Shown: positions 34,207 through 48,922 of the stretch, one piece after another
How the letters are laid out: the number at the start of each line of letters is the position of its first letter
Numbering within the stretch: position 1 is the first letter of the stretch
Assembly: GCF_016406325.1 (NCBI RefSeq)
Contig: NZ_CP066370.1
Coordinates: 248,001 to 312,000 of the forward strand
Length of the DNA: 64,000 bases
From: Shewanella putrefaciens
Lineage (GTDB): Bacteria; Pseudomonadota; Gammaproteobacteria; Enterobacterales; Shewanellaceae
Direction of reading: 5' to 3'
Notes under the pieces: generated by a model
The model's input: only the letters and a program-made list of their open reading frames with translations
Databases searched by the model: none
Told to the model about the DNA's origin: nothing
Translations under genes and position numbers: made by a program

Positions 34207-34719
34207 CTATTGCGCCTCTAAATAGCGGATAGGATTTTGATAAAATGCCTTTTTATATCCCTGAGTCGATGTATCTATCAACCAAGGTTTAGGTAATAAA
34301 CTTAATATTGAATAGTGTAAATGTGGCGGTTTTCCCTGCGCATTCCCCGTATCACCAACCGCGCCAAGAGTCTCTCCCTTTGCTACAATTAACCCCGTAT
34401 CGGCGGCAATTGTCGCCAAATGGGCAAAATAGTGAATTTGCCATTTAGGGCCAAGACCTACCACGACTTTACCTCCTTGGAAGAAGTCGCCTCGATAAAT
34501 GATCAGCATCGGTGTAGGGGCTATCACGGCGGTATTTTTTGGGGCAAAAATATCTATCCCTTTATGTACGCCAGAAGCTCCCCAAGGCTCGTACCAGAAG
34601 GTTTGACTATTCCAATCTTTACTACTTGCGCCTTTCACGGGGATGATGGGTGACTCAGGGACCAGATAACTGCTGATTAACAGTAACACTAGCGCTAATC
34701 CAACATATTTCAATTTCAT
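34207..34719 (-). CDS. M23-family (LytM-like) metallopeptidase
   Basis: 170 residues with an N-terminal membrane anchor or signal (about 5-20). The zinc site is formed by HKGIDIF (HxxxD) and PHLHYS (HxH), with GAVGDTGNAQGKPP between. These enzymes cut peptide crosslinks in peptidoglycan. ATG 34719 has AGGATAA upstream. It is the last of three minus-strand genes with a CHAP amidase at the head, suggesting joint action on peptidoglycan. Confidence 0.87.
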   Translation of the reverse strand: MKLKYVGLALVLLLISSYLVPESPIIPVKGASSKDWNSQTFWYEPWGASGVHKGIDIFAPKNTAVIAPTPMLIIYRGDFFQGGKVVVGLGPKWQIHYFAHLATIAADTGLIVAKGETLGAVGDTGNAQGKPPHLHYSILSLLPKPWLIDTSTQGYKKAFYQNPIRYLEAQ

Positions 34720-34758
34720 TATTTATCCTGAATTAAGCCTCTGTAAATGCCTCAGACT

Positions 34759-35337
34759 TTAATGGAACTCGCTGAACTCTCGCCAAGGTTCGGGATATTG
34801 TAAGCGTTCTTTTTGTGAGAGTGACAGCCAATAGGGGCGCCAAAAATAATGACACCAAAAATCGAGATTTCCTTGCAAGCTACCGAGAGTATCAGGATCG
34901 ATATCAGGAAAACTCTTCCACGGATCAGGTAATTGTGACTTGAAGCTAATTAGTTGCTCAAGTAGGGTTTGATCGTTAGTGATTAAATTCAGGCAAATAC
35001 CTGCAAAGTCTGCATATTGATTTAAAAACACACAGCTCGATTGGTTTGAATGCATTATTAAGCCATTAAACGGAGCGGAGTGCTCCGGCAGTACTTCAAA
35101 ACCTGCATTGTTTATCAGGGTATCGATGGCTTGTTTACCTTCGAGTGTGAGTAAGCAATGTATTTGATAAGCATAAATATCGTCCTGTGCCATAGGCATC
35201 ACCAGTGGATAAGTCTGCTGCAGAGGTATGGTGATACAGGGCATTTGTATTTGATTAAAAACCTCAGGCAATGCCACGTCTTGCTTGGATGATTTAATCA
35301 AGTTAACGCATTTGGTAAACCAAGCGAGCACTGACAT
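34759..35337 (-). CDS. Hypothetical protein in the cell-wall hydrolase group
   Basis: 192 residues, unrecognised, without signal peptide or membrane helix. It is rich in aromatic residues, notably near the C-terminus (NLDFWCHYFWRPYWLSL). It starts 5 bp after the CHAP gene stop with a GAGGAAT ribosome site, so it is translationally coupled to that gene; 39 bp separate it from the M23 peptidase. It may be a cytosolic partner or immunity-like factor, but this is speculation. Confidence 0.75.
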   Translation of the reverse strand: MSVLAWFTKCVNLIKSSKQDVALPEVFNQIQMPCITIPLQQTYPLVMPMAQDDIYAYQIHCLLTLEGKQAIDTLINNAGFEVLPEHSAPFNGLIMHSNQSSCVFLNQYADFAGICLNLITNDQTLLEQLISFKSQLPDPWKSFPDIDPDTLGSLQGNLDFWCHYFWRPYWLSLSQKERLQYPEPWREFSEFH

Positions 35338-35342
35338 TGGTG

Positions 35343-35990
35343 TTATTCCTCAACGGCATGGTTGTTAAAGAGCGAGGGCGCGATAGTCGGTGTTTGCAAT
35401 CTTAACCAGCCTTTTAACCGAGGAGCATCAATATACCAGAGCCCATCGTGTTGAGTTAGTGGGAAATATTCTCTTGAAGGTCCAAAAGGCCCTGGATTTT
35501 GCTGAACAATTTCAACCTGATGGTCATGGACCTCAGCAATAATAGCGACATGGCCATAGGGATTAAAAAGCCATGGAGCAAAAACGAGTAGATCATCAGC
35601 CTGAGGCGTTAATTGACTACCATTGACATATTGCAGCATGGCACGTTTTTCATTCCACGCACCGTCAGCCAAGCTGTTATCAAAAAAGTTGCGAGCATGA
35701 CCGTAGGTGTCAGGCATTTTGTGTTGATGACGCTGATAAAAGTAACGTTTCACAAATTCAACACATTGATATTTAATGCCTAAATTATAACCATCGATAG
35801 ACAAATTGCGGCCGTCACTGGTATTTACACCACCGTTATAATAGATCTCGACACCATTGAGGGAGTCGATAACGTCACCCACTTGGTATTTGGTATTAAA
35901 GTTATGCTGGGTGATAAGACGATAGGCACAATAGATAAGACTGAGGAGAATACCTAAACCCAAAAATAGAATGGAGATACGTTTAATCAT
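35343..35990 (-). CDS. CHAP-domain amidase, glutathionylspermidine-amidase-like
   Basis: 215 residues from ATG 35990. One N-terminal membrane anchor (about 5-25). The CHAP nucleophile is in YQCVEFVKRYF and the His in NPYGHVAIIAEV. The order and spacing (YNGG, GYQ/KYQCVEF, FAPW, GHVAII, QQNPG) resemble the amidase domain of bifunctional glutathionylspermidine synthetase/amidase, here without the synthetase. It may cleave glutathionylspermidine or peptidoglycan amides. First of a three-gene unit. Confidence 0.82.
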   Translation of the reverse strand: MIKRISILFLGLGILLSLIYCAYRLITQHNFNTKYQVGDVIDSLNGVEIYYNGGVNTSDGRNLSIDGYNLGIKYQCVEFVKRYFYQRHQHKMPDTYGHARNFFDNSLADGAWNEKRAMLQYVNGSQLTPQADDLLVFAPWLFNPYGHVAIIAEVHDHQVEIVQQNPGPFGPSREYFPLTQHDGLWYIDAPRLKGWLRLQTPTIAPSLFNNHAVEE

Positions 35991-36298
35991 TAACAAGGCA
36001 AACTCAAGAAATTAATATCTGAAATTCAGTAAGATACATCGCCCAAGTATTTTAAGCTCTAAGTGTGTGAGCGTCTAGGGAAAGGCGTTAACGGGATGAG
36101 ATTCATACTTAAGTACAAGGTGTAAATAAAAAGTGGCATTAGATCTTTGGCAAATTTGGCCAAGCTCTAGCAACAGACGGTGATAAGTTGCATTCTTGTT
36201 AACTTGACTCGGTGAATTCAGTTTATTGCAATGTGTAAACCCGTTAGACTGAAAACATCTCATCCAAAATAACGATAACAATATCCAAGGATGTCCAA
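35991..36298. other. Divergent intergenic region
   Basis: 308 bp between the CHAP gene and the PrnB-like gene. No gene or operator recognised. An ATG-TCC-AAG-TGA mini-frame at 36291-36302 overlaps the GTG start of the next gene. Confidence 0.45.
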
Positions 36299-37477
36299 GT
36301 GAAACCTGCCACCTACAATACCGAAGCGTTCGATGATTGGATCCGCACTCGTTTCGTCGAGCTAAACTCCGAGCTTGAACGGCTTTATTACCAGCAATCA
36401 GATCGCGCCAATGTGCTCAATATCGGCGATGAAGCGAAACAGCGGCTCGAATCTGAAGGGCGAGAACTGATAAAAACCTTGCTCGATGAAGGCAATACCG
36501 ATGAAGGCTTTGATAGTGCATTTGATTTACTCGGTAATGTTGGCCTGTATATGGCGGCCTGTCGTCGCCATGAAATTACCGAACCGTCGCGGGAAACCAC
36601 CTCACCACTGGCCGAAGCCTCTGCACTGGCGATGCATATTGGTGCCTCCATTGGCGTTACGCCACGCTTTGCCACCGCGCATTTAACCACACACAATCGT
36701 GCTCATCGTGGTATCTATAAGCGTTTTACCGATTTGCCTGATGAAAAACTGTTTGTGGATTATAACACTAAGGGGATCTTAGCCTATAAACGTGCCGCGG
36801 ATGCGTTATTGAAGATCCAACCGCTAGGAATTTCCCATCCAATAAGTCTGGATTTACTGCGTGTCGCTAAACAGGCATTACAGGATGTAATTGAATCGAA
36901 TACCCAATTATTTAATCGATTAGATACAGACCGCTTCTTTTATTGTGTGCGTCCTTACTACAAACCTTATCGTGTAGGCTCCGTTGTTTATCGTGGGGCA
37001 AATGCTGGGGATTTTGCGGGGATTAATGTTATTGATCTGACATTAGGGCTTTGTTTTGCCAACGAGTCTTCCTACTCGCAAATGCTGGTGGATAAATTTT
37101 TATATATGATGCCAGAAGATCAGCAGCTACTACGGGAATGCATGCGCCGCCCTAACTTAATGGATGATTTTTTGCGGGCGAAGAATAGTGTTAACCAAGA
37201 TTGGTATCAGCAAAATCTTAAACTCTTTATCGAGGTTTGTGAATTGCATGGTGAGACCGCAATTCAGCACCATAATCAATTAGTCACTAAATATATTGCC
37301 GAGCCTTCTACGACTATGGCTCAACAACATCTGGCTAAGGTCACTGCAAGTGGGCCACCATTATCTGTGCTGCTGGGTTCCCTCGAAAAACTTCGAGATA
37401 GGCGTGCAGCCACTAAACGCAGTGATATTCGTACCCGCTATGATGATCTTAACTGTTTAAAAGAGAGTTTGAGGTAA
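36299..37477 (+). CDS. PrnB-like protein of the tryptophan/indoleamine dioxygenase superfamily
   Basis: 392 residues, mostly helical. By recall it belongs to the PrnB family (PF08933/DUF1864), whose founder is the pyrrolnitrin haem enzyme that rearranges 7-chlorotryptophan and shares the IDO/TDO fold. Conserved-looking blocks include FRPYYKPY-type VRPYYKPYRVG and NAGDFAGINVIDL; candidate haem His residues occur in CELHGETAIQHHNQL. GTG 36299 has AAGG eight bases upstream. It ends 4 bp before a kynureninase-like gene, so the pair probably acts in one tryptophan-derived pathway. No pyrrolnitrin genes are nearby. The reaction is unknown. Confidence 0.75.
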   Translation: MKPATYNTEAFDDWIRTRFVELNSELERLYYQQSDRANVLNIGDEAKQRLESEGRELIKTLLDEGNTDEGFDSAFDLLGNVGLYMAACRRHEITEPSRETTSPLAEASALAMHIGASIGVTPRFATAHLTTHNRAHRGIYKRFTDLPDEKLFVDYNTKGILAYKRAADALLKIQPLGISHPISLDLLRVAKQALQDVIESNTQLFNRLDTDRFFYCVRPYYKPYRVGSVVYRGANAGDFAGINVIDLTLGLCFANESSYSQMLVDKFLYMMPEDQQLLRECMRRPNLMDDFLRAKNSVNQDWYQQNLKLFIEVCELHGETAIQHHNQLVTKYIAEPSTTMAQQHLAKVTASGPPLSVLLGSLEKLRDRRAATKRSDIRTRYDDLNCLKESLR

Positions 37478-37481
37478 TACC

Positions 37482-38603
37482 ATGTTTAGCGATTTTAAAA
37501 AGGATTTTTGTCTCGCCAATCCCGGTTATTTGTTGAGCCACTCCGTAGGGCGTCCACTTAAGTCTACCGAACAAGTCTTTAAAGAAGCATTTTTTGCACC
37601 ATGGCAGGACTCTGGGCGTGAACCTTGGGGACAATGGTTAAGCGTGATTGATGATTTTACCTTTGCTTTATCTAAGTTATTTAACGGTCACCAAAAAGAT
37701 TTTTGCCCTCAGGTTAATTTGTCGAGTGCGTTAGCAAAAATCCTGATGTCTTTGGCACGCCTAAACCGCGAACATGCCGTGGTGTTGATGAGTGAAATTG
37801 ATTTCCCTAGCATGGGTTTTGCTATTAAAAAGGCATTACCCGCCAGTTGTGAAGTGCGTTTTATTCCTAAAACGTTAGATATAACCGATGCCAATGTATG
37901 GGATGCCCATATGGGCTCGGATATCGATTTAGTGTTTGTTAGCCATGCATATTCCAATACTGGGCAGCAGGCTCCGCTTGCGAATATCTTGGCGATGGCA
38001 CGTCAATATGGCAGCTTAAGTGTGGTCGATGTTGCGCAATCCGCTGGAATTATTCCGCTTAATTTAGCTCAGTTACAACCTGACTTTTTGATAGGGTCGA
38101 GTGTGAAGTGGCTTTGCTCTGGCCCCGGAGCCGCTTACCTTTGGGTTAACCCTAGCATTATAGACAGTTGCCAACCTAAGGATGTGGGTTGGTTTAGCCA
38201 TGAAAATCCCTTTGAATTTAATATCCATGATTTTCGTTATCACAACTCGGCACTGCGTTTTTGGGGTGGAACGCCCTCTATTGCGCCCTATGCCATTGCC
38301 GCCCACAGTATTCATTATTTTGCCGATATAGGGGTTGAACAATTGCGTAAAGGGAACCAGCTATTGATTGATATCGTTGCCGAGGCGCTAGATCAAGAGT
38401 TTGTATCACCTAGAGAGATAGAAAAACGCAGTGGCACCTTAGTTTTGCAATTTGGTGAACAACAAGGGCAAATAATGGCAGCCCTTGCCAAGGCAAATAT
38501 CAGTGTGGATGCTCGTAGTATGGGGATACGTATTTCGCCGCATATTTATAATGATAAAGCCGATATTCAGTTGCTATTGAGTGTGATCAAGGCTCATCGC
38601 TAA
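37482..38603 (+). CDS. Kynureninase-like PLP-dependent enzyme
   Basis: 373 residues, fold-type I aminotransferase class V. The PLP Lys is in IGSSVKWLCSGPGAAYLWV, close to the kynureninase GxxYKYLNGGPG pattern, and the Asp holding the PLP pyridine is in LSVVDVAQSAG. It is shorter than typical kynureninase (about 410-465). Kynureninase hydrolyses kynurenine to anthranilate and alanine. The gene overlaps nothing but lies 4 bp after the PrnB-like gene, implying substrate relay. No formamidase is adjacent. Function as true kynureninase is inferred. Confidence 0.78.
   Translation: MFSDFKKDFCLANPGYLLSHSVGRPLKSTEQVFKEAFFAPWQDSGREPWGQWLSVIDDFTFALSKLFNGHQKDFCPQVNLSSALAKILMSLARLNREHAVVLMSEIDFPSMGFAIKKALPASCEVRFIPKTLDITDANVWDAHMGSDIDLVFVSHAYSNTGQQAPLANILAMARQYGSLSVVDVAQSAGIIPLNLAQLQPDFLIGSSVKWLCSGPGAAYLWVNPSIIDSCQPKDVGWFSHENPFEFNIHDFRYHNSALRFWGGTPSIAPYAIAAHSIHYFADIGVEQLRKGNQLLIDIVAEALDQEFVSPREIEKRSGTLVLQFGEQQGQIMAALAKANISVDARSMGIRISPHIYNDKADIQLLLSVIKAHR

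Positions 38604-46327: not shown

Positions 46328-48922
<2,595 letters not shown>

Follow-up and report, generated by a model that had tools for sequence, protein, structure and literature searches.

The 64,000-nucleotide stretch of the Shewanella putrefaciens genome analysed here (the window, part of a complete 4.39-Mb genome) contains two genes, 4 bp apart, for a haem protein of the PrnB family and a kynureninase-like enzyme dependent on pyridoxal 5'-phosphate (PLP), and we find that the two genes are inherited as one module. We propose, as a reading that we hold to be just on the probable side, that the pair constitutes a two-step oxidative route of tryptophan degradation, in which the haem enzyme would form N-formylkynurenine and the PLP enzyme would cleave its side chain with release of alanine. 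A preliminary description of the stretch had noted the two genes and assigned the first to the superfamily of PrnB and tryptophan 2,3-dioxygenase (TDO) and the second to the PLP enzymes of kynureninase type; calling of open reading frames (ORFs) places both on the + strand at the positions given there (Table 1), and the Pfam and NCBIfam matches agree with both assignments.

From 369 relatives of the haem protein in a genome scan, the 80 best loci were taken for examination; together with the window these make up a set of 81. The PLP gene adjoins the haem gene on the same strand in 79 of the 80 loci, the exception being L075, a contig of a metagenome-assembled genome with no PLP gene beside the haem gene, and the PLP ORF is irregular in two, being short at its start in L027 and split in two in L100. 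The two genes are fused as one 767-aa ORF in four loci (L094, L096, L097 and L099), the titles of the first three naming SUP05 or Pseudothioglobus and that of the last an uncultured gammaproteobacterium. A 128-aa gene lies 64 bp downstream of the fused gene in all four; its identification as RidA was rejected, as the L097 copy, the one compared with family models, is a DUF2721 protein. The remaining three copies match it in length and position.

Of 247 genomes sampled across the order, 17 have a PF08933 match, and those matched by the PLP profile (E <= 1e-30) are the very same 17; the pair is adjacent in 16 of them and unlinked in one (G090). Six of 398 genomes of the phylum carry PF08933 above the cut-off, all six with the PLP gene; three weaker PLP matches (125-137 bits) occur in genomes without PF08933 above the cut-off, and a match to PF08933 in G337 falls below it and contains stops. 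The haem and PLP genes of G571, which belongs to a class with PF08933 in 1 of 289 genomes, are on different contigs, and the unlinked PLP gene there lies 2 bp after a universal-stress-protein gene (L115:8608-10361). Within-family distances of the haem proteins and of the PLP proteins are correlated (r 0.85 for the 80 rows that the window makes up with 79 loci; 0 of 1000 permutations were as high), a correlation that shared ancestry alone could yield. These counts bear out the conservation of the pair on which the preliminary description had staked its idea.

Besides the pair itself, neighbour clustering found no third gene, other than one of Lrp/AsnC type, whose position near the pair is constant in most loci. 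A divergent gene of one Lrp/AsnC-type cluster lies immediately upstream in 61 of the 81 loci and farther off in one more; two members of the cluster were compared with family models, and L099 offers no upstream sequence for this check. In Pseudomonas, the kynurenine genes are regulated by KynR, likewise of Lrp/AsnC type (PMC12451312). Positions 34207-35996 of the window, where most related loci carry the divergent Lrp/AsnC-type gene, hold an M23 peptidase, an unassigned gene and a CHAP protein. Decayed copies were also seen: G889 (L152) has lost the PLP gene and, apart from a remnant of 22 residues, the haem gene, with the Lrp-type gene still in place, and in G935 (C1:44196-45274) a PLP match with two stops stands beside an open haem gene.

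The haem protein matches the Pfam family PF08933 ('PrnB') over its full length (696.3 bits against a cut-off of 27, residues 6-391) with no match to the Pfam TDO model PF03301, and its predicted fold is that of the superfamily that comprises indoleamine 2,3-dioxygenase (IDO), TDO and PrnB, the haem-dependent aromatic oxygenases (HDAO). In its structure model the loop 219-238, which with Arg218 and Phe213/214 would belong to the distal pocket, is of low confidence. Its identity is about 15% to PrnB and about 14% to IDO1/IDO2. The invariant proximal-type histidine, His325, is present in 81 of 81 proteins, and it aligns with a stretch of IDO1 (SYHLQIVTKYI) whose histidine we take to be the IDO1 haem ligand. 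The closest named relatives are from Shewanella, with that of Shewanella profunda at 93% identity, and over 364 aligned residues the protein is 86% identical to its ortholog SO4414 of Shewanella oneidensis (PDB 1zee and 2nwb; chain 2nwb_A compared), crystal structures of which were released in 2005 and 2006. The structure entry describes a 'putative 2,3-dioxygenase' 'in complex with ferric heme', and the entry titles name no tested function; a search of the open-licence literature found no paper naming SO4414. From the ferric haem of the ortholog and the invariance of His325, a histidine-ligated haem is predicted for the window protein, and haem binding and a conserved ligand histidine, to both of which the preliminary description had tied its idea, have their counterparts in the crystallised ortholog and the 81 aligned proteins. 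Databases already name some members of the family 'tryptophan 2,3-dioxygenase' or 'KynA', so that a dioxygenase is no new proposal. Another of these names, DUF1864, also has an entry in a domain table for coral lineages (PMC6214176).

The PLP protein is of class V and has the predicted fold of a fold-type-I PLP enzyme, with kynureninase among its structural kin. Pfam assigns it Aminotran_5 (82.6 bits) and KYNU_C (29.1 bits, cut-off 27), and its best NCBIfam model is the kynureninase model TIGR01814, at 93 bits below the curated cut-off of 246.4; its identity to the Pseudomonas fluorescens kynureninase (1qz9) is 20%. The predicted Schiff-base lysine, Lys209, is invariant in 80 of 80 PLP proteins. 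In a tree the family forms a clade apart from four canonical kynureninases, with a long-branch warning for canL151 and G090. Judged from sequence, the PLP protein is a member of a sister clade of kynureninase, and neither its score nor its residues make it a kynureninase.

A link of the pair to tryptophan-type oxidation is supported by its exclusion with TDO and by the replacement of its haem gene by a TDO-family gene. The window genome gave no PF03301 match in a genome search, and its sole match to the kynureninase model is the paired PLP gene. PF03301 was found in 0 of 18 carriers of PF08933 as against two of 11 non-carriers tested, and of 107 genomes sampled from the genus, 52 have PF08933 (G889 with the remnant only) and 22 have PF03301, none having both. 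The PLP profile matches 54 of these genomes, namely the 51 full-length PF08933 carriers and G870, G901 and G920, and in these last three a TDO-family ORF of 234-244 aa stands directly upstream of the PLP ORF, with end overlaps of 38, 38 and 8 nt between the ORFs as called. The substitute protein keeps an FxIVHQxxELW stretch and a histidine in the TDO proximal-ligand region; its L149 copy reaches 87.1 bits with the PF03301 model, whose cut-off is 34.9, and 109.6 with the TDO equivalog model, whose cut-off is 390.7. In the tree, the PLP proteins of G901 and G920 lie within the family clade, all other members of which belong to carriers of the PrnB-family gene, and support is 92/92 at the fork by which the substituted rows are grouped with 24 others. 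We take these loci and their placement in the tree to mean that the place of haem partner before this kind of PLP protein has passed from one branch of the tryptophan-dioxygenase superfamily to another. In L149 (5275-8951) the TDO-family/PLP pair comes after ferrochelatase and glutathione-peroxidase-like genes (families tested in L149), an order also seen in L147 and L148.

A second Shewanella pair joins a TDO-family gene to a divergent PLP gene of about 400 aa (L111, L112, L128-L130, L132, L134, L135 and L137-L145). Across the genus, TDO-family genes stand beside this different, very divergent kynureninase-like gene in 16 of the 22 genomes, the other six being the three substituted loci and three with neither PLP gene within 1.5-kb flanks. 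In the second pair, the TDO-family genes of L111 and L112 exceed the TDO equivalog cut-off and the L142/L150 copy stays below it, and the two divergent PLP genes that were scanned reach 28.2 and 23.7 bits with KYNU_C (cut-off 27) and pass no curated NCBIfam cut-off. One of these last three genomes, G884, has a full operon (L151:5941-11229) of TDO (396 bits), a flavin adenine dinucleotide (FAD) monooxygenase with VioC as its best model, kynureninase (443.8 bits), a fumarylacetoacetate (FAA) hydrolase and an alpha/beta hydrolase.

The substrate of a kynureninase-type lyase must be an amino acid whose beta carbon is flanked by a carbonyl, and the chemistry of TDO and IDO on tryptophan gives such a substrate in N-formylkynurenine; that of PrnB does not. 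Because the first chemistry makes the carbonyl that the lyase needs, we infer a course from tryptophan through N-formylkynurenine to side-chain cleavage. Opening of the indole ring of tryptophan with O2 would fall to the haem enzyme, and the PLP enzyme would then release alanine and N-formylanthranilate, or anthranilate and alanine if a hydrolase removed the formyl group first. Tryptophan as the substrate, its dioxygenation, the N-formylkynurenine intermediate and the (N-formyl)anthranilate and alanine products are thus all putative. No formamidase of the KynB type (TIGR03035) was found at E 0.001 in any of 36 genomes, including that of the window, in a search that did not cover alpha/beta-hydrolase formamidases and whose controls matched below the cut-off in 7 of 14 genomes and above it in none, G884 with its full operon likewise giving none. 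This being so, the PLP enzyme may take N-formylkynurenine itself as its substrate, or the formyl group may be removed beforehand by an unlinked alpha/beta hydrolase. A bolder version, which we find doubtful, is a formamidase-free shunt in which the PLP enzyme cleaves N-formylkynurenine to N-formylanthranilate and alanine, the pair of ring-opener and lyase having evolved several times (as a PrnB-family protein with this lyase, a divergent TDO-family protein with this lyase, and a true TDO with a deeply divergent lyase of a third kind, all these parts being unrelated) and having become fused into a single bifunctional enzyme in SUP05-type ocean bacteria. The accessible portions of PMC7461572 and PMC4938989 contain no mention of a kynureninase acting on N-formylkynurenine.

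Several observations weigh against the tryptophan route. The haem protein is closer in sequence to PrnB (E 1e-8) than to IDO (profile E 0.007), and members of its superfamily (MarE, PrnB and IDO) also carry out monooxygenation (PMC12921851). The GTGGS motif is missing from the substitute TDO-family protein, in which a stretch SLKGRS resembles the SLGGR of MarE. The structural margin of the PLP protein is small, at 37.0 for one kynureninase, 35.3-35.6 for human kynureninase, 35.1 for the cystine lyase C-DES and 34.9 for a SufS. The D, H and Y shared by all four canonical kynureninases compared are replaced in the window protein by M, Q and V (positions 111, 186 and 208). The residues are M/I, Q and V/I in 80 of 80 PLP proteins, and over all the family members looked at they are M/I/V, Q and V/L/I. 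In canonical kynureninase the D and Y matter for catalysis, and the changed residues could mean beta-elimination. The window is without the Lrp-type gene, as are its closest relatives, L021-L029. As to sampling, the 17 carriers of the order are drawn from 6 of 87 genera, the samples of order, phylum and genus overlap in their genomes, and the hypergeometric value of 3e-8 for the exclusion between TDO and the PrnB-like gene ignores shared ancestry.

That the pair acts on another aromatic amino acid or on a tryptophan derivative, for instance of the tyrosine or hydroxytryptophan type, seems to us unlikely. The superfamily also takes tyrosine-based substrates (PMC11791213), no substrate has been assigned to the pair, and three active-site residues of kynureninase are changed in the PLP protein; the mutual exclusion of the haem gene and TDO-family genes within the genus, and the replacement of the former by one of the latter, speak against this. 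The preliminary description had also suspected a different substrate, from the shortness of the PLP protein; length is a weak argument, and the replaced D, H and Y are better evidence for the same suspicion.

We likewise hold it improbable that the haem enzyme monooxygenates tryptophan and that the PLP enzyme performs a beta-elimination, which would give an oxindole-type product, pyruvate and ammonia. The monooxygenase activities of MarE, PrnB and IDO (PMC12921851) favour such a course, and so do the missing GTGGS and the SLKGRS stretch of the substitute protein in the three genomes (MarE SLGGR: PMC11904535). MarE acts in this way on a tryptophan derivative to give a 2-oxindole amino acid. Gln186 of the PLP protein, moreover, is Gln in C-DES and His in kynureninase.

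It is very unlikely, in our view, that the co-conservation reflects genome history alone, with a two-gene cassette moved or lost as a unit and its enzymes serving separate pathways. Tight linkage does favour joint loss, as in G889 with its haem-gene remnant and retained Lrp-type gene, and the distribution in the order is patchy (17 of 247); set against this are the single-ORF fusion in four loci and the co-occurrence despite unlinking in G090 and G571. A PrnB-type reaction to an aminophenylpyrrole natural product, then modified by the PLP enzyme, is hardly credible and was set aside, for all that the family name and PrnB as the nearest characterised relative suggest it, as the 18 window neighbours checked include no halogenase or other prn-type gene, no third gene is conserved save the Lrp/AsnC-type one, and the haem partner has been swapped for a TDO-family protein. 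The PLP partner, the Lrp/AsnC-type neighbour of most loci and the TDO-family swap fit a kynurenine-type catabolic step better than a PrnB ring rearrangement. Of the novel product foreseen in the preliminary description, the connection to tryptophan-type oxidation gains from the TDO exclusion and swap, and an aminophenylpyrrole-like product is improbable.

The positions of the features are collected in Table 1. The haem and PLP genes are likely to form one transcript, and their translation is possibly coupled; a promoter scan was uninformative, with 7 matches against 6.6 expected.

Table 1. Features of the haem/PLP gene pair, in window coordinates
Feature	Position	Strand	Remarks
PrnB-family (PF08933) protein of the IDO/TDO/PrnB superfamily	36299..37477	+	392 aa, GTG start; SO4414 ortholog
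Kynureninase-like fold-type-I PLP protein	37482..38603	+	373 aa, ATG start
His325 codon, predicted proximal haem ligand	37271..37273	+	codon checked; alignment with IDO1 SYHLQIVTKYI stretch
Lys209 codon, predicted PLP Schiff-base lysine	38106..38108	+	codon checked; alignment with kynureninase TYKY stretch
First-gene stop, 4-bp gap and second-gene start	37475..37484	+	
Intergenic region upstream of the haem gene	35997..36298	.	

Eighteen neighbouring ORFs within 26584-50207 were checked against Pfam, a few ORFs there being left out. They include genes for an M23 peptidase, a CHAP protein, a TonB receptor, DUF1375, an ABC transporter, two-component systems, glutamine synthetase, BipA, a GGDEF protein and a KatG-type peroxidase, among others; the peroxidase-family gene (PF00141, 728 aa) lies at 46736-48922, 8 kb downstream of the pair. 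None of the 18 is a formamidase, TDO, halogenase, Rieske oxygenase or other prn-type gene, in line with the separation of the pair from formamidase, TDO and pyrrolnitrin genes already remarked upon in the preliminary description, and a pyrrolnitrin-type context (prnA, prnC or prnD nearby) is absent among them.

Compared with known systems, the haem protein differs from PrnB of the pyrrolnitrin pathway in its low identity, its checked neighbours and its PLP partner, and the PLP protein differs from the P. fluorescens kynureninase in falling below the TIGR01814 cut-off, in its replaced D, H and Y and in its separate clade. With kynA/kynB/kynU and KynR of P. aeruginosa (PMC12451312, PMC4938989) the system has a common logic of haem dioxygenase, kynureninase and Lrp/AsnC regulator, but its haem enzyme is non-orthologous, its PLP protein belongs to a sister clade and no kynB-type formamidase was found. 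MarE, a TDO-like natural-product enzyme, is of the same haem superfamily and has a tryptophan derivative as its substrate; the accessible portion of PMC11904535 mentions no PLP partner for it. The pairing, the TDO exclusion, the swap and the fusion were not found in a search of the open-licence literature, mostly without full text.

The activity of the PrnB branch is hard to reconstitute in vitro (PMC11791213), and the natural fusion protein would allow a one-tube assay of both steps. A crystallised haem protein with no reaction named in the searchable literature would gain a testable substrate and partner, and this branch of the superfamily would gain a catabolic model enzyme. If the proposed route is true, oxidative tryptophan breakdown in many marine Gammaproteobacteria uses genes that are missed by the TDO and kynureninase models.
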